Source of the DNA: Rhodothermus sp.
Lineage (GTDB): Bacteria > Bacteroidota > Rhodothermia > Rhodothermales > Rhodothermaceae
Direction: 5' to 3'
NCBI GenBank assembly: GCA_030950375.1
Contig: JAUZRN010000015.1
Span: forward strand, 1-64,000
DNA length: 64,000 nt
Below the pieces are notes generated by a model. That model saw only the letters and a list, made by a program, of their open reading frames with translations, did no database searches and had not been told where the DNA came from. The position numbers and the translations under genes were made by a program. Below, piece by piece: positions 4,266 to 18,094 of this stretch. Position 1 is the first letter of the stretch, and each line of letters starts with the position of its first letter.

Positions 4266-5018
4266 ATGCTACACACGATTGAAAAAGCCTGTAAAACGTT
4301 ACGTCTTTTCACCGAAGAGAAGCCGGAATGGGGCGTCACGGAATTAGCCCGTACGTTACGTATTCCCAAATCCAGCGCAGCAGGTATCCTATCGACCCTG
4401 GCGCATTACGGGCTGCTACGCCGAACGCCTTCGCGGAAATACCGATTGGGCTGGGAAATTCTGCGGCTGCACAGGCTGTTGGTGGAGACGTCCGAGTTTC
4501 GACAGCTGGCCCATCAGGAGATGGAGCGTCTGGTCCGAGAATACGGCGAAACGACGCATTTAGCTACGCTGGAAAATGGCATGGTAGTGTACATAGACAA
4601 AGTGGAAGGCTCGCGTTCTGTTCGGGTACACGTTACCGGTCTGGGCGTGCGCCTTCCCCCGCATGGAAGTGCGGTTGGCAAGATATTGCTGGCTTACCGT
4701 CCCTGGCCAGAGGTCCTGGAGATTATCCGGCGTCAGGGGCTCCCAGCGCTGACCCCCAACACCATTACCAAGCTGGAGCACCTGGAACAGGAGTTGATTC
4801 GGGTGCGTCAGCAGGGCTATGCGATTGATGAGGAAGAGGTGCTGCCTGAGCTATGCTGCGTGGCTGCGCCCATTCGTAACTACCTGCGGCAAACAATTGC
4901 AGCGATGAGCATCTCGGCCCCCTCCTACCGTTTTCGCCTCATGCGCGAGCGCTACACGCAGGCCGTCGTGGCCGCCTGCCAGCGCATTTCCAGGAAGCTG
5001 GGTTTTGCCTGTGGTTGA
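4266..5018 (+). CDS. IclR-family transcriptional regulator
   Basis: A 250-residue protein, the usual IclR length. Residues 1-60 form the winged helix-turn-helix (TELARTLRIPKSSAAGILSTL is the recognition region). Residues 75-245 form the effector-binding domain, with GMVVYIDKVEGSRSVRVH and the LPPHGSAVGKILLA block typical of the family. Many IclR members control aromatic degradation operons. This gene lies tail-to-tail with the 15-gene aromatic cluster, its stop 2 bp from the last gene, and is the only regulator nearby. It is therefore the likely controller of the hpaB promoter at about 18.1 kb, responding to an aromatic substrate or intermediate. The family is clear; the target is inferred. 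Confidence 0.9.
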   Translation: MLHTIEKACKTLRLFTEEKPEWGVTELARTLRIPKSSAAGILSTLAHYGLLRRTPSRKYRLGWEILRLHRLLVETSEFRQLAHQEMERLVREYGETTHLATLENGMVVYIDKVEGSRSVRVHVTGLGVRLPPHGSAVGKILLAYRPWPEVLEIIRRQGLPALTPNTITKLEHLEQELIRVRQQGYAIDEEEVLPELCCVAAPIRNYLRQTIAAMSISAPSYRFRLMRERYTQAVVAACQRISRKLGFACG

Positions 5019-5308: not shown

Positions 5309-7024
5309 TCAATAAACCGGCCGTTCCCGCTCCCCCTGCTGCGCTTCCAGCCAGGGCTGTACGGGTGGCATCTCTTCGATCATGGAGCGCACCGGCACTT
5401 CCAGCAACCAGGGGCGCCCTTGCTGAAAAAATTGGGTTACTTTACGGACCAACTGATCAGGATCCGTCACCCGAGCGGCCTCCACTCCCATACTCCGAGC
5501 CAGCTGTACGCTGTCAACCGGCCCTAAGCGAACCCCGAAATAACGTTTTCCATAATAGAGATGCTGTAGTGTCTGAATCCAGCCATAGGCATGGTTGGTC
5601 AGTTGGACAAACAGGACTGGTAGGTTGTAGCGCACAGCTGTTTCCAATTCGCCAGCGGCCATGGCCATGCTGCCTTCGGTGGTAAAGACCAGCACAGGCC
5701 GCTGCGGGCATGCCAGGGCAATCCCGATGCCAGCGGGAATGGCATAACCCATGGGCCCCACACCCCGCGGTAAAATGACGGTACGTCCGGGTCGATTGAG
5801 GGTCCAGTAAGCGGCCAGATAGGGCGTAGGCGTACCCGGATCGCCTACCACAATTACCTCGGCGTGAGCGGCAGCCAGGCGATGGATCAACTGTACGATA
5901 CGGCGCACCGAAAACTCTGGGCCCGCCCCTGTAAGTATGCCTTGTTTACGCACTTGCGTGATCTGCGCCATACGCTCCGCTTTTGGGATACTACCTGTCT
6001 GGCTCAGTGCATCAATCAGTTGTTCCAGCACCACGCGGGCGTCCCCAACAAGCGGTATAGCCCCCGGATAATTAGCACCTGCCCGTAAGGGATCGATGTC
6101 GATCTGTATGATCCGCGTTCCCTGTCGGGAAGGTGCCCGGAAACTCAACGTATCGGTCGCATTGGCACGTGTGCCTACCAACAGGACCACATCCGCCTGG
6201 GCGACATAGGCGTTGGTGGCGGGTTGTCCACCGTTCGCTCCGACCACACCCAGGTAGAGCGGATGCCTCTCCGACAGGGCGCCTTTACCATGGATAGTGG
6301 TGGCAATCGGCAACTGATAGGTCTCAGCCAGAGCCTGCAACACCGTATAGGCATTGGACCAGTGCACCCCTCCACCCGCCACAATTACCGGTTGTTGAGC
6401 GGTGGCAAGCCATCGGGCAGCCTGTTCAACCAGAGAGGGATCTGCCTCGGGGCGCCTTGTTGGAAGATCTGGCTTCCATGCACATGCAGCCGCCTCACAC
6501 CCCTCAGGCACGGAGGCTTCCCAGAGATTCTCCGGTATCACCAACGCACCTGGCGCAGGCCGCTGCGTTCCCAGCTGTTCCCAGAGCGCCCGAAAAAACC
6601 GGGGGAGTTGATGGACTTGCGCTACCCGATAAACGGCTTTCGCGGTACCCGCCAGCAAGGTGTCCACAGGAAACTCGGTCAGTGCGCCACTACCCCGACT
6701 GTCTTGATGAATGTCGCTGACTACAGCCAGTACAGGCACCGAAGCGGCATAGGCCTCCACAAGTCCACTGGCCAGGTAGGCCGCTCCCCCTCCGCTGGAA
6801 GCCTCGACAACCATACGTCGGCCGGTCACGCGAGCAGCTCCATCGGCCATATAGGCCGCATGCCGCTCATCACGGGTAACAATGTGTCGCAGCGATGGGT
6901 GGTGGCGCGACAGGGCGTCGTACAAGGCCACGCTCGTATCTCCGGGCAATCCAAAGACCAGCTGTACCCCTGCCTGCTTCAGCAATGCGATCAGGAGTTC
7001 CGCGCCTGTTTGCCCCCTTCTCAT
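5309..7024 (-). CDS. Thiamine-diphosphate-dependent enzyme (acetolactate synthase/benzoylformate decarboxylase type)
   Basis: A 571-residue protein with the three-domain TPP-enzyme layout. The PYR domain spans residues 1-170, with the catalytic Glu in RDERHAAYMADGAARV near residue 53. A central Rossmann-like domain covers 200-335, and the PP domain 375-545. The Mg/TPP motif normally reading GDG...NN is TEGSMAMAAGEL...LTNHAYG here: the Asp is replaced by Glu and the ligand Asn is kept. It probably decarboxylates a 2-oxo acid or joins one to an aldehyde. The standard catechol meta pathway does not need such an enzyme, so its substrate is unknown. Its start overlaps the FAH stop by 4 nt (ATGA). 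Confidence 0.8.
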   Translation of the reverse strand: MRRGQTGAELLIALLKQAGVQLVFGLPGDTSVALYDALSRHHPSLRHIVTRDERHAAYMADGAARVTGRRMVVEASSGGGAAYLASGLVEAYAASVPVLAVVSDIHQDSRGSGALTEFPVDTLLAGTAKAVYRVAQVHQLPRFFRALWEQLGTQRPAPGALVIPENLWEASVPEGCEAAACAWKPDLPTRRPEADPSLVEQAARWLATAQQPVIVAGGGVHWSNAYTVLQALAETYQLPIATTIHGKGALSERHPLYLGVVGANGGQPATNAYVAQADVVLLVGTRANATDTLSFRAPSRQGTRIIQIDIDPLRAGANYPGAIPLVGDARVVLEQLIDALSQTGSIPKAERMAQITQVRKQGILTGAGPEFSVRRIVQLIHRLAAAHAEVIVVGDPGTPTPYLAAYWTLNRPGRTVILPRGVGPMGYAIPAGIGIALACPQRPVLVFTTEGSMAMAAGELETAVRYNLPVLFVQLTNHAYGWIQTLQHLYYGKRYFGVRLGPVDSVQLARSMGVEAARVTDPDQLVRKVTQFFQQGRPWLLEVPVRSMIEEMPPVQPWLEAQQGERERPVY

Positions 7025-7980
7025 GGGTCGTCTTCACGCAACACCGGATTTTCCAACACGCCGATGCGCTCAATTTCAATACGCACCACGTCGCCCGGCT
7101 GAAGAAATCGGGGAGGCGTCCGGACAAAGCCAACCCCTGCCGGAGTACCCGTAGCAATCACGTCGCCAGGCTGCAACGTCATTACCTCCGAGAGACATGC
7201 GATAACCGTGGCTACCGAAAAGACCATTTCCGCCGTGGAGGCTTCCTGCATCACCTCTCCATTGAGCTGTAGCTGGATACGGAGTTTCTGGGGATCTGGA
7301 CATTCATCCGGCGTAACAATCCAGGGCCCCATCGGAGCAAAAGTATCGAACGCTTTGCCCAGCGTCCACTGGGACGTTTTGAACTGATAATCCCGGGCCG
7401 ACACATCATTGAAGATCGTGTAGCCAGCCACACAGCTCAGGGCCTCCTCCTCGGTTACATAACGCGTCCGACGTCCGATTACCACGGCCAGTTCTGCCTC
7501 AAAATCCACCTGGTTCGTGACGCGCGGCAGCCGGATAGGCTGCCTGTGGCCGATCAGACAGGAGGCAAACTTGGCAAAGACCTCAGGAAAAGAAGGAATG
7601 CCAACTCCGGCCTCATGCGCATGCGCTGGATAATTTCGTCCCAGACATAGCACTTTTTCAGGATGGCGCACCGGCGCGGCCAGTTGCAACGCGTGCAATG
7701 GTAACAACACACCGGTTGTTGTTAACAGCTCCGGGTCTTGTTGGTGCTTTTCCCGGAGAAAGGCTATCACTTCCTGAAGTAGCTGTATTCCTTCTGCTTC
7801 TCGCTGCAACAAAGTCTGCAAATCGGCAGGTAACAGCAACGCGGCCCAGAGGCGTGCGGTAGGGCTCGGCTGGTACCGCGCCCAGAGTGCTCCAGCCCGC
7901 TGGATATCCAGCACGTGTGCGTCGTCCCAGCACACGCCTGCCCGCAATTCTCCCCATCGCTGATACGTGAGCAATCGCAT
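7021..7980 (-). CDS. Fumarylacetoacetate hydrolase family enzyme
   Basis: A 319-residue protein. The N-terminal 100 residues are a variable cap; the FAH domain covers residues 105-315. The metal ligands are visible as VDFEAELAVVIG (two Glu) and FNDVSARD (Asp). The C-terminal GDVIATGTPAGVGFVRTPP block is typical of the isomerase/decarboxylase branch (HpaG/HpcE, FAHD1). Such enzymes decarboxylate or isomerise 2-oxo-dioates, or hydrolyse C-C bonds. In this cluster it could act on a homologous ring-cleavage product, or supply a decarboxylase for a carboxylated catechol. It lies 6 nt downstream of the hydratase gene, so it is co-transcribed. Confidence 0.85.
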   Translation of the reverse strand: MRLLTYQRWGELRAGVCWDDAHVLDIQRAGALWARYQPSPTARLWAALLLPADLQTLLQREAEGIQLLQEVIAFLREKHQQDPELLTTTGVLLPLHALQLAAPVRHPEKVLCLGRNYPAHAHEAGVGIPSFPEVFAKFASCLIGHRQPIRLPRVTNQVDFEAELAVVIGRRTRYVTEEEALSCVAGYTIFNDVSARDYQFKTSQWTLGKAFDTFAPMGPWIVTPDECPDPQKLRIQLQLNGEVMQEASTAEMVFSVATVIACLSEVMTLQPGDVIATGTPAGVGFVRTPPRFLQPGDVVRIEIERIGVLENPVLREDDP

Positions 7981-7986
7981 AGGTAT

Positions 7987-8793
7987 TTACTCAAAAACCA
8001 CAGTCAGTGGTGGGAATCCCTGCATACACAGGGTACACACATCCCCGCGAGCTACCGGAAACGAGGCGGCCAGGGCGCCGGAAAGCACAATATCGCCTGC
8101 TTTGAGACGTACCCCGTATTGGGACAACGTGTTCGCCAGCCAGGCCACAGCCCGTGCCGGATGGCCCAGACAGGCCGCACCAACCCCCTGGCTATGGAGG
8201 ACCCCGTTTTTGTAAAGCAGCATGCCTACCTGTTGCAGATCAAAAGTGCGGGCAGCCTGTTGCCAGGGTCCCAGTGTAAAAGCCCCAAAGGAAGCATTAT
8301 CTGCGACGGTATCATAAATGCGTATTCGCCAATCCCGAATGCGGCTATCCACAATCTCCAGACTGGCCGCAATGGCTTCCGTGGCGCCCAGCACCTCTTG
8401 TGGGGTAATGTTCGGTCCCTCCAGATCCTGTCCGAGCAAGAAAGCCAGCTCTCCTTCCAGACGAGGCTGCCAGAAGAGCTCAATCGGAATGGTAGCCTGG
8501 GTGCCGTGTGGTTCGAAATAGCGAGAAGCCCACAGATGCCCAAAATCAGGCTGATCGACTCCCATCTGCTGCTGCATGGCCAGCGAGGTCAGTCCGATCT
8601 TGTGGCCCAACACCTGCTCGCCTCGCTTCTTACGCAACGCTGTCCATGCCTGCTGGACGGCATACGCCACGTCGAGCTGAGTCAGGCCTGCCGTCTCGGA
8701 CAATGGCTCCACGGGCGCTCGTTGCTTTTCCCAGACAGCATCGAGCACCTCGGCCAGCTGAACGGCCACGGTTGTTATTGATTGGCCAGGCAT
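7987..8793 (-). CDS. 2-oxopent-4-enoate hydratase (DmpE/MhpD-like)
   Basis: A 268-residue protein of the hydratase/decarboxylase family. The metal ligands appear as PRLEGELAFLLG and SLEIVDSRIRDW. The SRIRDW form is the one usual in 2-hydroxypent-2,4-dienoate hydratases, so of the three paralogues here this is the best hydratase candidate. It would add water to 2-oxopent-4-enoate to give 4-hydroxy-2-oxovalerate for the aldolase. The start at 8793 overlaps the end of the semialdehyde dehydrogenase gene by 19 nt, indicating coupling. Confidence 0.8.
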   Translation of the reverse strand: MPGQSITTVAVQLAEVLDAVWEKQRAPVEPLSETAGLTQLDVAYAVQQAWTALRKKRGEQVLGHKIGLTSLAMQQQMGVDQPDFGHLWASRYFEPHGTQATIPIELFWQPRLEGELAFLLGQDLEGPNITPQEVLGATEAIAASLEIVDSRIRDWRIRIYDTVADNASFGAFTLGPWQQAARTFDLQQVGMLLYKNGVLHSQGVGAACLGHPARAVAWLANTLSQYGVRLKAGDIVLSGALAASFPVARGDVCTLCMQGFPPLTVVFE

Positions 8794-10277
8794 ATGTTTT
8801 TGATTTCGGTGTAGAATTCCAGGCTATACTGCCCGCCTTCCCGTCCAATGCCACTCTGTTTCATCCCGCCAAAAGGTACACGCAGATCCCGCACAAAGAA
8901 ATCGTTGACCCAGACTGTACCGGCTTCCAGGGCCTGGGCAACCCGCACAGCGCGGCCCGCATCGCGCGTCTGAACCACTGCCGACAATCCATAGGCTACC
9001 CCGTTAGCAATCGCAATAGCCTCTTCTTCTGTGTCGAACGGCAATACCGTGACGACCGGTCCGAAAATTTCTTCCTGGCAGACCCGGTCGGTGGGCTGCA
9101 CGCCTTCGATGATGGTGGGGTTGAGGAAATTCCCCTGGTCCAGGGGCGCGGGCAACACGGGACGATCACCGCCTATCAGCACACGCGCCCCCTGTTGGCG
9201 CGCCAGCTCAATGTAGAACTGCACCCGTTCCAGATGATCCGGGTGAATCAGCGCGCCCAGCGTCGTGTCGGGGTCAAACGGATCACCTGGCCGAATCCGC
9301 TCGCGGGTCGCCTGTATAAACTGCTCCAGGAACGTCTCATAGATGGGCCGCTGCACCAGCAACCGGGGACCGGCCAAGCAGAATTCCCCTTGATTGAAAA
9401 AGCTGGCCCGCAACGAAATCTGCACAGCGCGCTCCAGATCGGCATCGGCAAAAATAATATTGGCCCCTTTGCCGCCGAGCTCAAAGGAAAGACGCTTCAG
9501 CGTTGGCGCCGCTGCCTGCATGATGTGTTTTCCTGTGTTGCTTTCTCCCGTGAACGAAATCAGACGCACTCCGGGATGTTGTGTCAGCAAGGCGCCGGCT
9601 GAGTCAGGTCCGAACCCATGGACCACGTTAAAGACACCTGGCGGCAGCCCTGCTTCGTGGGCAAGCTGGGCCAACTTCCAGGCACCAATCGGAGTAAACT
9701 CGGCGGGTTTAAGCACAACCGTATTGCCAAAAGCCAGGGCGGGTCCCATCTTCCAGGTTGCCAGCAGCAATGGGACATTCCAGGGGGTAATCAATGCGGC
9801 TACGCCTACCGGCATGCGTTGCACATAATTGACGTAGCCATTATCCATGAGATAGGCTTCGGAGCCATGCGTTACGGCAAAATCCGCAAAGAACTCCAGA
9901 TTCCAGGCCACCCGCTCGATGTAGATCGCCGGATTGTTCTCGCGGATGGGGCGGCCTACATCATATGTTTCGATCCGGGCCAGCTCTTCAGCGTGTTCTC
10001 GAATGGCCTGAGCGAAACGATGCAGTAGCTCTCGGCGTTGCCGTGCAGGCATAGCCCGCCATTTGTCAAAAGCAGCCTGCGCCGCCGAAACAGCGGCTTC
10101 TACCTCTTCGGCCTTTCCCTCCGGCGCTTTGCCAATGACTTCGTTGGTGGCAGGATAATGGATTTCAAAATGACGTTGTCCTTCCACAAACTCGCCGTTG
10201 ATGTAGTGCTGGACGTTGAAGAAAGGAGGGCGGAGGGTTGCCTCCGTGACCTGTCCCTCGGCTTGTACCTGCGCCAT
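8775..10277 (-). CDS. 2-hydroxymuconic semialdehyde dehydrogenase (DmpC/XylG-like)
   Basis: A 500-residue NAD-dependent aldehyde dehydrogenase of full family length. Seen are the cofactor segment LITPWNVPLLLATWKMGPAL near residues 155-175, SFTGESNTGKHI near 240, the general base in SFELGGKGANII near residue 265, and the catalytic Cys in FFNQGEFCLAGPRLLVQ near residue 300. The closest functional class is hydroxymuconic semialdehyde dehydrogenase, given the surrounding meta-pathway genes. It oxidises 2-hydroxymuconate semialdehyde to 2-hydroxymuconate, opening the oxalocrotonate branch. No semialdehyde hydrolase for the alternative branch is seen in the cluster. HpaE (CHMS dehydrogenase) is an alternative. 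Confidence 0.85.
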   Translation of the reverse strand: MAQVQAEGQVTEATLRPPFFNVQHYINGEFVEGQRHFEIHYPATNEVIGKAPEGKAEEVEAAVSAAQAAFDKWRAMPARQRRELLHRFAQAIREHAEELARIETYDVGRPIRENNPAIYIERVAWNLEFFADFAVTHGSEAYLMDNGYVNYVQRMPVGVAALITPWNVPLLLATWKMGPALAFGNTVVLKPAEFTPIGAWKLAQLAHEAGLPPGVFNVVHGFGPDSAGALLTQHPGVRLISFTGESNTGKHIMQAAAPTLKRLSFELGGKGANIIFADADLERAVQISLRASFFNQGEFCLAGPRLLVQRPIYETFLEQFIQATRERIRPGDPFDPDTTLGALIHPDHLERVQFYIELARQQGARVLIGGDRPVLPAPLDQGNFLNPTIIEGVQPTDRVCQEEIFGPVVTVLPFDTEEEAIAIANGVAYGLSAVVQTRDAGRAVRVAQALEAGTVWVNDFFVRDLRVPFGGMKQSGIGREGGQYSLEFYTEIKNICLANQ

Positions 10278-10310
10278 AATGTATCCCGGTTTTGTTAGCT
10301 GGAAACAAAC

Positions 10311-11042
10311 TCAAGGAGTTAGCTGGCAGAGCAGAAGGTAGTTGTCCAGTTCGACCCGGAGCACTCCAGGCCGTGCCGGTTGCGCGCTCGTTGGTGATCC
10401 CATAAAGATGAACTGTCCGGCCTGTAGTCCTCCTACCTGCCGGGCGAGCCACTGAAGACGCTCTCCAGGATCCCCCAGTACAGCTACCTCGCCTTCCCCG
10501 ACACATACGCCGTCCAGAAACAGACGCAACGTCCCCGCACGGGGCCAGGCCGATAGTAGCTGCGTTCCCATCAAAAAGCCTCCCCCGGATGCATTATCAG
10601 CGACCACCTCGACCACTGAAAAGCGATAGTCCTTCCAGACGGAGTCCAGTACATCAAGCCCCAGAAAAATACCCCCGATCGCCTGCTCAGCCTGGTCAGG
10701 CGTACTCGAGGGGGGGATGGGCGCCCGCAACCAGACGACCAGTTCAGGTTCCATCCGAGGTTGCAGAAATTGCCCCAGCGATAAAGGACTTTCCTGGAGC
10801 ATTTCGGTTGTAATACGACCATAAATCGGGTGATCGATGCCCATTTGCTGTTGTTTGGCGGGGCTGAGTAAGCCCAGCTTATAGCCTTTGAGGGATACAG
10901 CAGATAGCCGTGTCGCCTGAACACGGTAAGCCCCGTTCAGATCGACCTGCCAGTCCCCTCCACGGCTGGTCAGTAGCGTGCGCGTCTGCCGCGCCCACTC
11001 AATGGCCTCTCGAAGCCTCTGTTCGTTTTGACGCAGCATCAT
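10311..11042 (-). CDS. 4-oxalocrotonate decarboxylase-like protein (first of two)
   Basis: A 243-residue member of the hydratase/decarboxylase family. It carries PRMEPELVVWL for two metal ligands, but the third ligand position reads GLDVLDSVWKDYRF, with Asp where the two paralogues have Glu. The following VVADNASGGGFLMG block is closer to 4-oxalocrotonate decarboxylases than to hydratases. It would decarboxylate 2-oxohex-3-enedioate to 2-oxopent-4-enoate. Its start lies inside the end of the tautomerase gene (44-nt overlap), which fits the tautomerase-decarboxylase pairing of meta operons. The shorter length and the changed ligand leave some doubt about activity. Confidence 0.75.
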   Translation of the reverse strand: MMLRQNEQRLREAIEWARQTRTLLTSRGGDWQVDLNGAYRVQATRLSAVSLKGYKLGLLSPAKQQQMGIDHPIYGRITTEMLQESPLSLGQFLQPRMEPELVVWLRAPIPPSSTPDQAEQAIGGIFLGLDVLDSVWKDYRFSVVEVVADNASGGGFLMGTQLLSAWPRAGTLRLFLDGVCVGEGEVAVLGDPGERLQWLARQVGGLQAGQFIFMGSPTSAQPARPGVLRVELDNYLLLCQLTP

Positions 11043-11229
11043 CTATCCGATCTGCCAGTGATTGGCCGCCAACAAACCAGTGCGTCGCAGGGACTTCCTG
11101 ATACACAACCCGCACGGTTTCCGCAGACACCCCGATCGTTTGTGCTGCGGTTTCAGACAGCGCGGCCGCCAGTTCCTGCAACTGCGCGGGCGTACGCCCT
11201 GCCCGCAGCGTGATGCGCAAGAGCAACAT
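10999..11229 (-). CDS. 4-oxalocrotonate tautomerase family protein lacking Pro1
   Basis: A 76-residue protein that aligns without gaps to 4-oxalocrotonate tautomerase. It begins MLLLRITLRAGRT: the residue after Met is Leu, not the catalytic Pro. The Arg11 (GRT) and Arg39 (TVRVVYQE) positions are kept, and the GHFGIGG loop reads HWFVGG. The start is firm: AGGAAAA precedes it and no in-frame Met-Pro lies upstream. The usual mechanism uses Pro1 as the general base, so this protein alone should be weak or inactive. It may be a partner subunit of the Pro1-containing mini-tautomerase at 15229-15378. The C-terminal 14 residues are an extension. Confidence 0.8.
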   Translation of the reverse strand: MLLLRITLRAGRTPAQLQELAAALSETAAQTIGVSAETVRVVYQEVPATHWFVGGQSLADRIDDAASKRTEASRGH

Positions 11230-11340
11230 AATCTTTTTCCTGGATGAAGGCCAACCGAGCAGGCCCCCTATACCTGGTCAGGAGGCCTTTGCGCCTGGCT
11301 CAATCCCTCTTGGTCTTTCTGTGCTGAATGCATAGCGCCT

Positions 11341-12108
11341 TCAGACAGCGCTCAAAAAAAGCGTGCCCAGGCCACCAAATTCTGCCACGTAGGTGTCCCC
11401 CGGCTGCACGGGATGGGCTCGGGTCAGTCCTCCCGTCAGCACCAGGCTACCTGCTGGAAGCGTCTGCCCCTGCTGGGTCAGTGTCTCCACCAGCCATTGC
11501 AGGGCAAGCAGCGGATGTCCCATCGCCTCGGCCCCCAGTCCTTGATCGATCGCCTGGCCATTGCGCCAGAGCCGCACCCCCACCAGCGCCAGATCAACCC
11601 GGCAGGGCCAACGCTGCGGAGGGCCCAGCCATACACGCGCCGCTGAGCTATTGTCCGCAGTATTATCTTCCAGTTGAAAAACGTACTGCTGATAGCGCGT
11701 GTCCACAATCTCCAAACAGGGATAGACCACCTCGATAGCCGCCTGCAAGGCGAGCCAGTCGGGTTTGCCCTCCAGCGTACGTCCCACATAGAGCGCAATC
11801 TCAGGCTCAATACGCGGGTGAATGAGCGCACTGCAGGCAAGCTGTGGCTGCGTTAGCAACATGCGGTCCAGCAAAACGCCATAATTAGGGCGGTCAATGC
11901 CCAGTTGGGCGCGCATGGCCGCGCTGGTAAATCCCAGTTTATATCCTATTGGGGTCCCCGCTTGCAGGGCTACCCGAGCCTGTTGCACCCGATAGGCTTC
12001 TTCCAGCGTCAGCGCATACTGCTGGGTAAGCGGCTGAATGGGACGCCGCTGCTGCTCCGCTTCATACAACCGGCGCGCCAGTACCTCAATAGTTGCCGCC
12101 TCCAGCAT
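11341..12108 (-). CDS. Hydratase/4-oxalocrotonate decarboxylase family protein (second decarboxylase type)
   Basis: A 255-residue protein, the third paralogue of this family in the cluster. The metal ligands are PRIEPEIALYVG and CLEIVDTRYQQY. The NTADNSSAARVWLG block resembles the DxxADNxSSxxFVLG region of 4-oxalocrotonate decarboxylases. It is thus likely the main decarboxylase, or a decarboxylase for a substituted substrate, while the one at 10311-11042 acts as partner. Hydratase and decarboxylase of this family are known to form complexes in Pseudomonas. It begins 6 nt after the flavin reductase stop. A gap of 111 nt separates it from the downstream tautomerase. Confidence 0.75.
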   Translation of the reverse strand: MLEAATIEVLARRLYEAEQQRRPIQPLTQQYALTLEEAYRVQQARVALQAGTPIGYKLGFTSAAMRAQLGIDRPNYGVLLDRMLLTQPQLACSALIHPRIEPEIALYVGRTLEGKPDWLALQAAIEVVYPCLEIVDTRYQQYVFQLEDNTADNSSAARVWLGPPQRWPCRVDLALVGVRLWRNGQAIDQGLGAEAMGHPLLALQWLVETLTQQGQTLPAGSLVLTGGLTRAHPVQPGDTYVAEFGGLGTLFLSAV

Positions 12109-12618: not shown

Positions 12619-13164
12619 TTATTCGTAGTACCATCCCATGAGAGAGCGAGCTTGCTCAATTTGCTGTTGCAGCAAAAGTGATCGAATACGACTGGAAGAA
12701 ATGATCTTACCTGTATGATCACGTACTTTTACAAATTCTCTGACATTAAAATACCTGGCAAGTGTCTCCACATTTCCCTCTCTATTTTTTCCAAATTTAA
12801 AATCTTTTCCAACCCATATTTCTATAGGATTTACCCAGCTTATCCTCTTAATAAAATCATAAGCGCTTAATGCAGCATAAGCTCTGTCAAATACGACAAC
12901 GACGACATAGTCTGGACCAAACGCCGAAAGGCGTCGCAGCTTTTCAGGCAGCGGCGTTAGCAGGCGTGCTCCTTCAAACAGGGTGCGTGGTGGTGGATCA
13001 AAAGTCAAAATGACAAAAGGCACGCCGTGGTGCCAGGCGCGGCGTTGCGCCTGCCGTAGCAGGGCCTGGTGGCCACGGTGGACTCCATCAAAGGCCCCCA
13101 TTGTCAACACGGAAGCATCCAGGCGCAGAGGCCATCGGGTGGCAGTGTCGTAGCAGACTCGCAT
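12619..13164 (-). CDS. Stand-alone FAD synthetase domain (RibF N-terminal part)
   Basis: A 181-residue protein equal to the FMN adenylyltransferase half of RibF. GAFDGVHRGHQALL (residues 23-36) is the nucleotidyltransferase HxGH-type motif, TFDPPPRTLFEG follows, and SSSRIRSLLL near residue 158 matches the C-terminal domain motif. The riboflavin kinase domain of bifunctional RibF is missing; the protein simply stops after MGWYYE. Expected reaction: FMN plus ATP gives FAD. Placement between the aldolase and the flavin reductase suggests it supplies FAD for the HpaB/HpaC monooxygenase. A housekeeping RibF presumably lies elsewhere. Confidence 0.85.
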   Translation of the reverse strand: MRVCYDTATRWPLRLDASVLTMGAFDGVHRGHQALLRQAQRRAWHHGVPFVILTFDPPPRTLFEGARLLTPLPEKLRRLSAFGPDYVVVVVFDRAYAALSAYDFIKRISWVNPIEIWVGKDFKFGKNREGNVETLARYFNVREFVKVRDHTGKIISSSRIRSLLLQQQIEQARSLMGWYYE

Positions 13165-13171
13165 CCTCGCT

Positions 13172-14209
13172 TTACAGGGCTTCTTCCTGAGCGGCCAGCT
13201 CCGCAGCGACCCGCCAGATCCAGTCTTCCTGACCGGCCACCGCTTGCCGCCGGCCCAGTTCCATCAACACTTTTGTAGGATCAACGCCCAGTTGTTGTCC
13301 AATGCGTTTGGCATGGAGCAGAAACGTCGAGTATACGCCCGCATAGCCTATAATCAGCGCATCTCGATCGATTACAGGTTGCCGTGGCATTATTGGCGCC
13401 AGCACAAATTCAGCCGCATCCATGATTTTGAATAGATCGATCCCGGTAGCAAGGCCGGCTTTTTCCAGCACGGCGACCAGCACTTCGGTCGCGGCATTTC
13501 CTGCACCTGCGCCGAATCCCCGCAGCGTTCCATCGATCTGGTCAGCGCCTGCTGCCAGTGCCGCCAGCGTATTGCCAATCGCCAGCCCGAGATTATTGTG
13601 CGCGTGAAACCCCACCTGAATCTCCAGTGCTTCTTTGAGGGCCTTGACCCGTGCATAGACTTCATGGGGAAGCATCGCACCGGCCGAGTCCACCACATAG
13701 ACACAGTCGGCCCCATAGCGTTGCATGAGCAACGCCTGCTCCTGCAGCACTTCGGGCGGCCGCATATGGGCCATCATCAAAAATCCGATCGCTTCCAACC
13801 CCATCTCCTTGGCAATGCCAAAATGCTGCTCGCTGATGTCGGCTTCGGTGCACATGGTCGCAATGCGTAACACCGAAACACCACGCGCCACCGCCTCCTT
13901 AAGCTCGCGCCGGGTGCCAATACCTGGAAGAAGCAGGGCGGCAATGCGTGCTTGCTGGACAACCGAAGCGACCTCCTCAATCAGCACCCATTCCGGCTCG
14001 CGCGAAAAGCCATATTGAATTGAAGCCCCCCCCAGTCCGTCTCCATGACTGACTTCAATGACCGGAACGCCCGCGGCATCCAGTGCTTGAGCGATCTGCC
14101 GCACCTGTTGCCGCGTGTACTGATGCCGCATGGCATGCGAGCCATCCCGCAGCGTGGTATCCGTCAAACGAGGCGGCTCTCGCCGGGTCAACGATGCCAG
14201 GTTCAACAT
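13172..14209 (-). CDS. dmpG: 4-hydroxy-2-oxovalerate aldolase (DmpG-like)
   Basis: A 345-residue HMG-CoA lyase-like TIM-barrel aldolase. [17 protein letters not shown] (residues 16-32) holds the family's first metal-site Asp and active-site residues. [20 protein letters not shown] contains the two metal-binding His. The C-terminal segment ([18 protein letters not shown]) matches the communication domain that contacts the dehydrogenase. It splits 4-hydroxy-2-oxovalerate to pyruvate and acetaldehyde and channels the aldehyde to the dehydrogenase encoded just upstream. The start overlaps the dehydrogenase stop by 7 nt, as in most bacteria with this complex. Confidence 0.93.
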
Positions 14210-15129
14210 ACGAGGGTTCCCTCCCGCTTTAAAAGTTCACGGGCAAAGAGATTCCCGACCTGCCAGGCAGCGGCGGTCATAATATCCAGATTGCCAGCAT
14301 ATCGAGGAAGAAAGTCCCCCGCCCCTTCTACTTCCAACAGGCAGGTTACTACCACCCGTCGCCCCCAGGGGGTCTCCAGCGTATCGAACAGCGGTTCCGC
14401 CTTCAGCCGATAACCTGGCACATAGGCTTGCACCTGGGCTTCCATCTGACGGATCGAGGCCACCACAGCCTCCCGGTCAAGCTGATCGAGCGAATCCACT
14501 TCGGGTATCACGTAGACCGTATTGGTCATGAGAATTGGAGGATCTGCAGGATTGAGAATGATCAGCGCTTTGCCCCGTTGCGCTCCCCCAATCGCTTCAA
14601 GGCCGCGTGCTGTCGTAAAGGTGAACTCATCAATGTTCTGGCGCGTCCCGGGCCCTGCGGACCGGCTGGCAACCGTTGAGACAATCTCCGCATACTGTAC
14701 AGGATAGACCCGATGTACGGCATAGACCATCGGGATGGTTGCCTGTCCACCACAGGTGATCAGATTTACATTATCGGCTTCCAGATGCGCGCCCAGGTTG
14801 ACTGGTGGGACCACATAGGGCCCCCGAGCCGCTGGGGTTAAATCAACCGCTATCTTACCGGCTTCTCGCAAAAGAGGCGCATGCCGCACATGCGCCTTAG
14901 CACTGGTTGCATCAAACACCAACCGAATTTCCGGATCTTCCAGAATTGCCTGAATACCTTCGTGCGAGGTGTCAATGCCCAGCTCACGTGCCCGCGCCAA
15001 ACCTGGTGAATCAGGATAAATCCCCACCATCAACGCCAATTTCATATAGCCAGGATTTTTACAAATTTTATACATTAAATCTGTACCAATATTGCCTGGT
15101 CCAATAATCGCTACTTTGACTTTATCCAT
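14203..15129 (-). CDS. dmpF: Acetaldehyde dehydrogenase, acylating (DmpF-like)
   Basis: A 308-residue protein, the usual family length. The N-terminus has the Rossmann motif ([14 protein letters not shown], residues 5-18). The catalytic Cys is in [17 protein letters not shown] near residue 131. The conserved block [20 protein letters not shown] follows. It converts acetaldehyde and CoA with NAD to acetyl-CoA, working as a channelling complex with the aldolase encoded immediately downstream. This pair supports a catechol-type meta pathway rather than the homoprotocatechuate pathway, which ends in succinic semialdehyde. Confidence 0.95.
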
Positions 15130-15469: not shown

Positions 15470-16474
15470 CTATAGAGCCTCCTCTTCTGCTTTCTTAACG
15501 GCAGCTTCTTCCTTAACAGGCGGGGTACCATAGCGGAAGTATTCCGCAGGCAGTTCTCCACCCCACCAGATAATGCCACGATCCAACACGTCTTCAGTCC
15601 ACTTCACAGGCTTCCAGTCGGGATCGAAGATCAGATAGCCTGGATCGCCAAAGAGCTCGACGCGATTGCCCCCCGGCTCAAACACGTACATGAAATACGC
15701 CTGGCTGATACCGTGTTTGCCCGGACCGGCTTCAATCGTGATGTCATGCTCGCGCAGGGCATCCGCCAGGTTAGCTACATCCTGGGGGAATCCGTACCAA
15801 TAGCAAATGTGATGCAGCCGGCCTTTAGCCCCCTGTGCATCTCGCATAAAAGCGATTTCGTGCACCAGTGGGCTCACGCTCAACCACACACCCGCCCATG
15901 TACCATTGTTGAGTTCAATGTACTCCCGCACCCGGAAGCCCAATACCTGCACCAGAAAGTCCTTGTTAGGCTCTACACGTTCGGCCAACAGGTTTACATG
16001 GTCCAGCCGACGCACCGGCACCCCACGCAACGGGCGCTTACTGGGACGATTGAGAAGTTTCGACTGCTTATCGGCGGGGGCCTCGTAGTAATCTACCTCC
16101 CAGAGCAACTCCATGGGGTGCCCGTCCGGGGTAACAAATTGATAAGCCGGGCCATGCCCATGATCTCCATCAATCCATCCACGTCCCAGTCCTGCGGCCT
16201 CAATAGCCTTGACCCGACGCTCCAGTGCTGCCGGCGAGGTCGTCCGCCAGGCCACATGCCCCAACCGCGGCGTCGGCCCCTCGGTAAGCTTCAGCGTATG
16301 GTGATAGAAGTCTTCATAAGCCCGCAGATAAACTGACTGTCCGACCGTCTCGGTCACCTCCAGCCCCAGCATATCCCGGAAAAACCAGAGCGACTCCTCT
16401 GGCTTGGGCGTAATCAACTCGACATGAGCCAGCTGAGCTACCTCGAACAGGGGTTCCATTTGCTTGGCTTCCAT
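15470..16474 (-). CDS. Extradiol ring-cleavage dioxygenase (catechol 2,3-dioxygenase type)
   Basis: A 334-residue two-domain vicinal-oxygen-chelate dioxygenase. The N-terminal domain spans residues 12-130, the catalytic domain about 152-280. The Fe(II) ligands are seen as RRLDHVNLL (His), RLHHICYW (His) and GNRVELFGD (Glu). It would cleave catechol next to the hydroxyls to 2-hydroxymuconate semialdehyde. The start at 16474 is supported by AGGAGGT four bases upstream. The C-terminal 25 residues are a charged tail ([13 protein letters not shown]) beyond the usual family end. It is second in the operon, 30 nt after the monooxygenase gene. Action on a substituted catechol is possible. Confidence 0.9.
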
Positions 16475-16504: not shown

Positions 16505-18094
16505 TCACTTTTGCTTTCCATTGCTGAATATATTGATATCTTCTGGATTTATCAGATCGGGAACGACCCAGCCATCCAGGTCATACTCCTGAAGACATTG
16601 CTCTGCAAATCCTTTATATTGATCTACCTTTCCTGATGCCATCGAGGCTAACAACACTTCTAATCGAATATTTTCATGATTACCTGCATAATTACGTTCA
16701 TATAGTTCATGTCTTCCACCAAACTCACTACCTATTGCATCCCATATCAGCTTCATCAATTTGATCCGTTTCTCTGCTGTATAGCCGTTTGTGCCGCGTA
16801 CGTACTTCTCCAGAAACTCCCGAATAACCGGATTCTTCAGGTCTTTGACATGGGAGGGCAGATAAATGAGGGCACTGGCCAGGTCCTGCATGAAAATTTC
16901 TCGGATGCGTGGATAGGCTACCGTCGCAAACACCCGATAGGCCAGTCCGTAATCCAGATTGGGCAACACATAGTCGTCTATCCAGGGCATGGGTGTCCGC
17001 GCCATGGCATCGGTAATGGCCCAGAAGAGATTGCGCCAGGCCAGCACTTCACCTACGCGAACTTGCACGCCCCGAAAGTCTTTCGAACCGGTGGCCTCAA
17101 CCCCCATCAATAGCAACCCGGCCAGAAAATCCAGCTTGACCGCCAGCCGCGTGCACCCATGAAACGTAAAACGTGGAATAAACCCAGAAAGCGGGAAGAA
17201 TTCGTTTACCTTATCCACATCCCCGTAAACAAACACATTCTCCCACGGCACCAGCACCTTGTCAAATACAAAGATAGCGTCATTCTCGTCGAGCCGACTC
17301 GAAAGCGGATAATCAAACGGACTGCCTACCGCTTCCGCCATAAATTCGTACGAGGGGCGCGAGATCAACTTCACACCCGGCGCATTCATTGGTACACAGA
17401 TGATCAGAGCCAGCCGCCGATCTTTGATGGGCAAGGGACCATAATGTGCAATGAAATTATAGTGCGTTAATGCGGAACCCGTAGCTACAACTTTTGCCCC
17501 ACTGACCACAATCCCTGCATCGGTTTCCTTCTCTACATGCATGTACACATCCATGACTTCCTCCGGCGGCCGATTGCGGTCCACCGGTGGATTCACAATG
17601 GCATGGTTCCAGTACAACAGTTTTTCCTGGGTCTCCCGGTACCAGCGACGGGCGTTTTCCTGGAAGGGCTCATAAAAGGCCGCATTCGCGCCCAAGGTCC
17701 CTACAAACGAAGCTTTGTAATCGGGGCTACGCCCCATCCAACCGTACGTAATGCGCTGCCACGCGGCAATCGCATCCCGGGCATGGACCAGATCCTCCGC
17801 GCTTTTCGGGGCCTTGAAAAACCAGTGCGTGTAGCCCCCATTACCCGTGTCCGTCTCCGTGCGAATTACGGCTCCCTGTTCGGGATCATGCACGGCATCA
17901 TATAGGCGGGCAATCATGCGTGCCGCATTGCGAAAAGCCGGATGCTGTGTGACATCTTTTACGCGTTCGCCATACACATACACCTCACGCCCGTCCCTTA
18001 AACTCTCCAGATATTCCTCCCCGGTCATAGGACGAGTAACCGGACGGGTGTTGTCGTAGGCATCATAGCGAGCGGTCTTCTCAGAAACGCCCAT
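16505..18094 (-). CDS. hpaB: FAD-dependent phenol/4-hydroxyphenylacetate 3-monooxygenase, oxygenase subunit (HpaB type)
   Basis: A 529-residue protein of the HpaB/PheA family. Seen are [20 protein letters not shown] (residues 23-42), [20 protein letters not shown] near 92-111, the flavin region around [20 protein letters not shown], and [16 protein letters not shown]. These enzymes use reduced FAD from HpaC to hydroxylate a phenol ortho to its OH. Since the downstream genes end in acetaldehyde and pyruvate, the substrate is more likely phenol or a simple alkylphenol than 4-hydroxyphenylacetate. It is the first gene of the cluster, behind a repeat-rich control region. The last 100 codons are AT-richer than the rest. 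Confidence 0.9.

Follow-up and report, generated by a model that had tools for sequence, protein, structure and literature searches.

A stand-alone FMN adenylyltransferase gene in a phenol-type degradation cluster of Rhodothermus, predicted to supply FAD to an HpaB-family monooxygenase

We propose, with a probability of about 0.8, that a short gene in a Rhodothermus sp. degradation cluster encodes a monofunctional FMN adenylyltransferase (window FADS) that is dedicated to the FAD supply of that cluster. The window is the whole 64,000-nucleotide stretch of DNA that was analysed. A sequence-only reading had suggested a dedicated FAD supply, and this is the reading best supported by the work below: the module is intact, an ordinary RibF is present elsewhere in the genome, the gene belongs to a lone subfamily found beside HpaB-family monooxygenases, and there is a precedent in Geobacillus thermodenitrificans NG80-2. 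The genes of the cluster are, in order of transcription and with a gap of about 340 bp between the dioxygenase and the acylating aldehyde dehydrogenase:

16505..18094, minus strand: HpaB/PheA1-type FAD-dependent monooxygenase (TIGR02310, 730.4 bits, below the cut-off of 885.2; best PDB match 4oo2)
15470..16474, minus strand: catechol 2,3-dioxygenase (TIGR03211, 352 bits, cut-off 320)
14203..15129, minus strand: acetaldehyde dehydrogenase, acylating (above the NCBIfam cut-off)
13172..14209, minus strand: 4-hydroxy-2-oxovalerate aldolase (above the NCBIfam cut-off)
12619..13164, minus strand: lone FMN adenylyltransferase (RibF-N/FAD_syn, without a riboflavin kinase domain), 181 aa
12115..12606, minus strand: flavin reductase (Flavin_Reduct; best PDB match PheA2, 1rz0)
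11341..12108, minus strand: FAA-hydrolase-fold hydratase/decarboxylase
10311..11042, minus strand: FAA-hydrolase-fold protein
8775..10277, minus strand: aldehyde dehydrogenase (HpaE/2-hydroxymuconic semialdehyde type)
7987..8793, minus strand: 2-oxopent-4-enoate hydratase-like protein
7021..7980, minus strand: FAA hydrolase family protein
5309..7024, minus strand: thiamine-diphosphate-dependent enzyme, acetolactate synthase/decarboxylase superfamily
4266..5018, plus strand: IclR-family regulator, at the far end of the cluster and on the opposite strand

The FADS open reading frame occupies exactly 12619-13164, from ATG to TAA, 7 bp downstream of the aldolase gene and 12 bp upstream of the flavin reductase gene, with both neighbours on the same strand. 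PF06574 (FAD_syn) covers residues 17-157 (2.7e-37; 128.4 bits against a curated cut-off of 27), and the profile search of the window proteins listed no Flavokinase match for it. Without the C-terminal PF01687 riboflavin kinase domain the protein falls outside the bifunctional RibF family, and the earlier claim that only the adenylyltransferase half is encoded here is borne out. An AlphaFold model built on a 40-row alignment has a mean pLDDT of 96.2 and a pTM of 0.91. Its closest fold match is the FAD synthetase of Corynebacterium ammoniagenes (CaFADS; Foldseek 2.9e-15), with a TM score of 0.88 over the query and 30% identity; the sequence aligns to residues 3-186 of the 338 in CaFADS, which form the adenylyltransferase module. 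All of the close fold matches are FAD synthetases; 3op1 is a pneumococcal protein of the same fold that is titled a macrolide-efflux protein.

The catalytic motifs HxGH, GxD/N and SS[TS]xxR are present (H29, H32, D121, S156-S158 and R161), and the catalytic residues are retained in its homologs. In CaFADS, H28, H31 and N125 are reported as essential, and the change N125D as abolishing FAD formation (PMC3509593, excerpt). Window FADS has Asp at the N125 equivalent and Pro at the H57 equivalent. Asp is the commonest residue at the former site in the bifunctional RibFs that we collected (81 of 88) and belongs to the published [DN] consensus (PMC2573891, section 12), so it is no sign of inactivity. 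At motif N2 the protein reads FDPPP and thus departs from the F-x-P-[HQ]-P consensus of PMC2573891, which was drawn from bifunctional enzymes. This is variation common to the subfamily, with the fold kept: it bars membership of the ordinary RibF modules, not of PF06574. Window FADS is a complete predicted FMN adenylyltransferase module, and nothing more.

The neighbouring genes point to the pathway that would use the FAD. Catechol 2,3-dioxygenase, the aldolase and the acylating aldehyde dehydrogenase, which together mark catechol meta-cleavage, all score above their cut-offs. The top PDB match of the oxygenase, 4oo2, is a chlorophenol-4-monooxygenase and that of the reductase, 1rz0, is PheA2, component B of phenol 2-hydroxylase. 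Since the oxygenase scores below the cut-off for HpaB-2 (TIGR02310, 4-hydroxyphenylacetate 3-monooxygenase), whilst the dioxygenase exceeds its own and the reductase matches PheA2, a phenol-type route into catechol meta-cleavage fits the cluster better than a 4-hydroxyphenylacetate route, and the substrate is probably a phenol. The gene does lie among those for an FAD-dependent monooxygenase and its reductase, whilst the hpaBC label first given to the cluster has given way to a phenol/catechol type. We infer that the cluster genes are co-transcribed. Three FAA-hydrolase-fold, hydratase-like paralogs lie within 7987-12108, two of them weak in Pfam (33 and 36 bits). Scans of the window for Rfam families, tRNAs, promoters and terminators, and ribosome sites returned nothing useful.

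The genome is 3.03 Mb long and 99.6% complete. Searched for a full RibF elsewhere, it yielded two FAD_syn domains and, with PF01687, a single Flavokinase domain. The latter is fused to the second FAD_syn on contig 23 (C23:35174-36061, an open frame of 318 aa), giving one ordinary bifunctional RibF. Within the assembly, this excludes window FADS as the only RibF. The lone and bifunctional types coexist in all eight of the other genomes checked. Two of the seven genomes of the family carry the lone gene: the window genome and a second genome of the genus, where a syntenic cluster has the same gene order. FADS is 88% identical between the two, alongside 97% for HpaB, 99% for the dioxygenase, 94% for the acylating dehydrogenase, 93% for the aldolase and 89% for the reductase. 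Such conservation, together with the catalytic residues being kept in its homologs, is far beyond chance.

We surveyed other genomes for lone FADS genes beside such monooxygenases, and the arrangement recurs well outside the window genome. An HpaB-family gene is present in the cluster at 34 of 37 lone loci (12 of 12 on plasmids, 8 of 8 on genome contigs, 12 of 15 in Bacilli, and one of one each in Hyphomicrobiales and in the second Rhodothermus-genus genome), a count that includes related loci and near copies (L015/L016, L136/L137), which are not independent events. As a control, we inspected the surroundings of ten bifunctional RibF genes, of which nine belong to the same Bacilli genomes and one to the window genome; no HpaB-family gene lies near any of them.

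For plasmids, tblastn matched 106 records, the top 18 of which resemble lone FADS; at all 12 of those 18 that were examined (H1, H3, H5, H6, H8, H13, H14, H15, H17, H7, H11 and H16), an HpaB-family gene lies within about 5 kb, as does a flavin reductase. Five plasmid records (H8-H12) share a FADS match of the same identity and span. On plasmids of Sphingobium YC-XJ3 and Sphingopyxis YC-JH3 (L018, L173), an HpaB-FADS-flavin reductase trio with IclR and LysR regulators lies between IS6100 copies and looks like a mobile unit. An Aminobacter plasmid encodes a 324-aa protein (L175:3854-4828) with an FAD_syn of the ordinary EPHP type and no recognisable Flavokinase. Genes for a flavin reductase and an HpaB-family protein lie close by, and the association may have arisen here a second time, independently. 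Among the best 80 of 593 stretches in the genome-contig scan, eight are lone (L023-L030), 71 are long frames and one, L070, is a broken frame. The HpaB-family gene lies within 8 kb at six of the eight lone loci and farther along the contig at L026 and L028. The genome of L023, Bacillus sp. OV166, has seven FAD-synthetase-type matches, of which one is lone and the other six have frames of 275-323 aa.

A profile built from ten lone proteins separates lone from bifunctional FADS. Among the matches listed for 299 Bacilli genomes, it gave 16 lone copies in 15 genomes at 190-254 bits, the other matches listed scoring at most 140.4 bits and having frames of at least 290 aa. For twelve of the 15 copies outside the seed genome, an HpaB-family gene lies no more than 9 kb away. 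One other copy (L142) sits on a 5-kb contig, too short to judge for HpaB, where a catechol 2,3-dioxygenase adjoins it. The other two, L145 and L148, have no HpaB-family gene within 9 kb; their neighbours are ammonium-transporter genes and an acyl-CoA-dehydrogenase-family gene, and they possibly serve another flavin-hungry system. We do not claim this neighbour as an oxygenase: it is FadE16-like (231 and 233 bits, cut-off 600), and its DszC/HsaA matches are weak. In Hyphomicrobiales, two of 347 genomes carry lone FADS; one is the seed and the other has HpaB and the reductase alongside. At E 1e-46, none was found in 394 Actinomycetes or 274 Gammaproteobacteria, which is a weak negative in each case, as neither set contained a known positive and scoring was confined to the few highest-ranked candidates of each genome. 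A phage search with FADS matched 24 records, and the five listed were weak or RibF-like.

In a tree of 34 lone and 52 bifunctional N-modules, all of the lone sequences fall on one side of a branch with an SH-aLRT support of 98. The tree is unrooted and was made by a quick method, with SH-aLRT values and no bootstrap; of the 88 bifunctional rows it includes 52, L070 being dropped for its broken frame and roughly one contig row in two being taken. On the strength of this single branch we reject several independent truncations of RibF. Residues were counted in 34 lone and all 88 bifunctional sequences (L150 seems frame-shifted at its start, and its intact part was used). Four columns set the two groups apart most strongly. 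Position 58 is Pro in 33 lone sequences and Ser in one, against His in 73 bifunctional sequences, Gln in 13, and Tyr and Asn in one each. Position 24 is Ala in the lone group and mostly Asn in the bifunctional one; Pro113 occurs in 34 of 34 lone sequences and Cys149 in 31 of 34. The CaFADS equivalent of position 58, H57, is reported to line a positively charged cavity (PMC3509593, excerpt). Distances between FADS proteins follow those between their HpaB partners (Mantel r 0.67 over 30 loci; the largest of 2000 permutations gave 0.195), also in Bacilli alone (r 0.83 over 19 loci; permutation maximum 0.50, with 0 of 2000 reaching r). The correlated loci span three quite different HpaB types (window-like, L017-like and L023-like). 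A wider reading, which we hold at a little short of even odds, is that many HpaB-family (group D) monooxygenase systems, spread over at least three bacterial groups, include as a third component an FMN adenylyltransferase of one old, separately evolving, kinase-less subfamily. This subfamily would have its own pocket residues and be tuned to act free of the control that the kinase module exerts in RibF.

The same clade-specific residues in and near the pocket (positions 24, 58, 113 and 149) could instead mean that the protein adenylylates another flavin or a pathway acid, or that it is a flavin-sensing regulator. The directly catalytic residues are kept, however, the close fold matches are all FAD synthetases, and FAD supply is the role reported for the NG80-2 enzyme, so that we regard a different acceptor or a regulatory role as very improbable.

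The base composition around the gene may bear on its history. Between 12000 and 13000 the window has 44-50% GC, against mostly 56-60% in the cluster; this segment takes in the latter half of FADS and a large part of the reductase gene. Codons 91-150 of FADS have a GC3 as low as 0.20-0.23, whilst that of the first half of the gene is ordinary. Given a Thermus cluster of like backbone that lacks FADS and has a divergent reductase (below), FADS and the reductase may have entered a shared backbone as a pair. We treat this as a lead, which the low GC3 over the end of FADS and the start of the reductase fits and the GC3 of the first half does not. A similar drop occurs at 16655-16744, where a single block of 30 codons towards the 3' end of the HpaB gene has a GC3 of 0.10. 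The low GC3 of the second half, together with the absent C-terminal half, might also suggest that a RibF duplicate without function is decaying here. That explanation is scarcely credible and we reject it: the frame is intact and conserved in the second genome with its catalytic residues, its branch contains no bifunctional sequence, and the gene recurs next to HpaB.

FADS is an accessory to such pathways and is dispensable, since it is missing from an otherwise closely similar cluster on a Thermus thermophilus plasmid. Its proteins are 70% (HpaB), 75% (dioxygenase), 77% (acylating dehydrogenase), 73% (aldolase) and 67% (aldehyde dehydrogenase) identical to those of the window, the reductase 42%. 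No FADS match was found in the Thermus cluster, where an NAD(P)-dependent oxidoreductase (dehydrogenase) occupies the slot, and no lone FADS in an alphaproteobacterium with an 808-bit HpaB-2. A strict pathway requirement for FADS can thus be discarded.

We suggest the following role. When the cluster is expressed, the RibF elsewhere would make FMN, and window FADS would convert extra FMN to FAD (FMN + ATP -> FAD + PPi). The PheA2-like reductase would need FAD as a substrate, and perhaps also as a bound cofactor, and would pass FADH2 to the HpaB/PheA1-type oxygenase, giving a catechol for meta-cleavage. PheA2 itself is described as having a tightly bound FAD, with a Kd of about 10 nM, and as using a second FAD as substrate (PMC6165268, excerpt). 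As it lacks the kinase half, window FADS would shift the FAD:FMN ratio upwards and produce no additional FMN. In CaFADS the kinase module reportedly makes the adenylyltransferase module bind FMN less well (PMC7017516, excerpt), and a lone module may therefore be less restrained, escaping that control. By analogy, both the FAD demand of PheA2 and the kinase restraint of CaFADS would apply to the window system. We infer that the enzyme is active and that its FAD serves the cluster oxygenase. Against this reading, tblastn found no flavin reductase at ten of the 12 loci with an L023-type HpaB, and none was identified among the six to eight ORFs examined at one of these, L136.

The same chemistry could bring a different benefit, in which removal of free FMN limits the output of FMNH2 by the flavin-promiscuous reductase; FMNH2 would be useless to the oxygenase and would autoxidise to peroxide. 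PheA2 and HpaC are indeed reported to reduce FMN and also riboflavin (PMC6165268, excerpt), and FADS adjoins the reductase gene both here and at the alphaproteobacterial loci examined. Yet the Thermus cluster works without FADS, and in Bacilli FADS often adjoins HpaB instead, and we hold FMN removal to be an unlikely benefit.

If FAD supply is the role, bacteria often ship a cofactor-making enzyme along with a cofactor-hungry oxygenase. This would bear on the possible underperformance of two-component monooxygenases when only the oxygenase and reductase are moved to a new host, and lone FADS would offer a ready-made, single-domain predicted FAD booster with diagnostic residues.

The closest known system is the anthranilate 3-hydroxylase of NG80-2, in which a cluster-borne FMN adenylyltransferase and an FAD reductase are described as providing FAD to the hydroxylase (Liu et al. 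2010, via an excerpt of the review PMC4539516). By gene content the window is alike, one cluster combining an FMN adenylyltransferase with a flavin reductase and an oxygenase of the HpaB family; its substrate, unlike that of NG80-2, is probably a phenol and not anthranilate. The three NG80-2 proteins were reportedly tested in vitro by Liu in 2010. L136-type Bacilli loci match the NG80-2 anthranilate pathway by gene content: L136 has an HpaB-1, lone FADS, 3-hydroxyanthranilate dioxygenase (264 bits, cut-off 220), an amidohydrolase, a RidA-type protein and meta-cleavage genes. The NG80-2 enzyme is named riboflavin kinase/FMN adenylyltransferase in the review excerpt (PMC4539516), whilst NG80-2 is counted as having a type-I FADS plus a lone FMNAT in Table 1 of PMC2972280, section 5 of which gives five genomes with lone FMNATs alongside type-I FADS in the 2010 count, the excerpt naming no role for them.

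Window FADS resembles the N-terminal FMNAT module of type-I RibF (CaFADS, 2x0k; TmFADS, 1mrz) in fold, in HxGH, GxD/N and SSxxxR, and at about 30-43% identity, but differs in having no riboflavin kinase module, in FxPPP for FxP[HQ]P and in its separate branch. Plastid AtRibF1 and AtRibF2 are likewise RibF-derived FAD synthetases without detected kinase activity (PMC2972280, excerpt), but they retain a divergent C-terminal module and are of cyanobacterial origin. As in the PheA1/PheA2 phenol 2-hydroxylase, a monooxygenase and a flavin reductase feed catechol cleavage, and PheA2 is the top PDB match of the window reductase. The main text of the two-component review PMC6165268 lacks the terms 'FAD synth' and 'ribF', and our literature search, which subscription papers mostly lay outside, met the FADS-oxygenase arrangement nowhere besides the NG80-2 review. 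The idea of a cluster-borne FAD supply is thus already known from NG80-2; as far as our searches show, what is new within that literature is its spread, its single branch and its signature residues.
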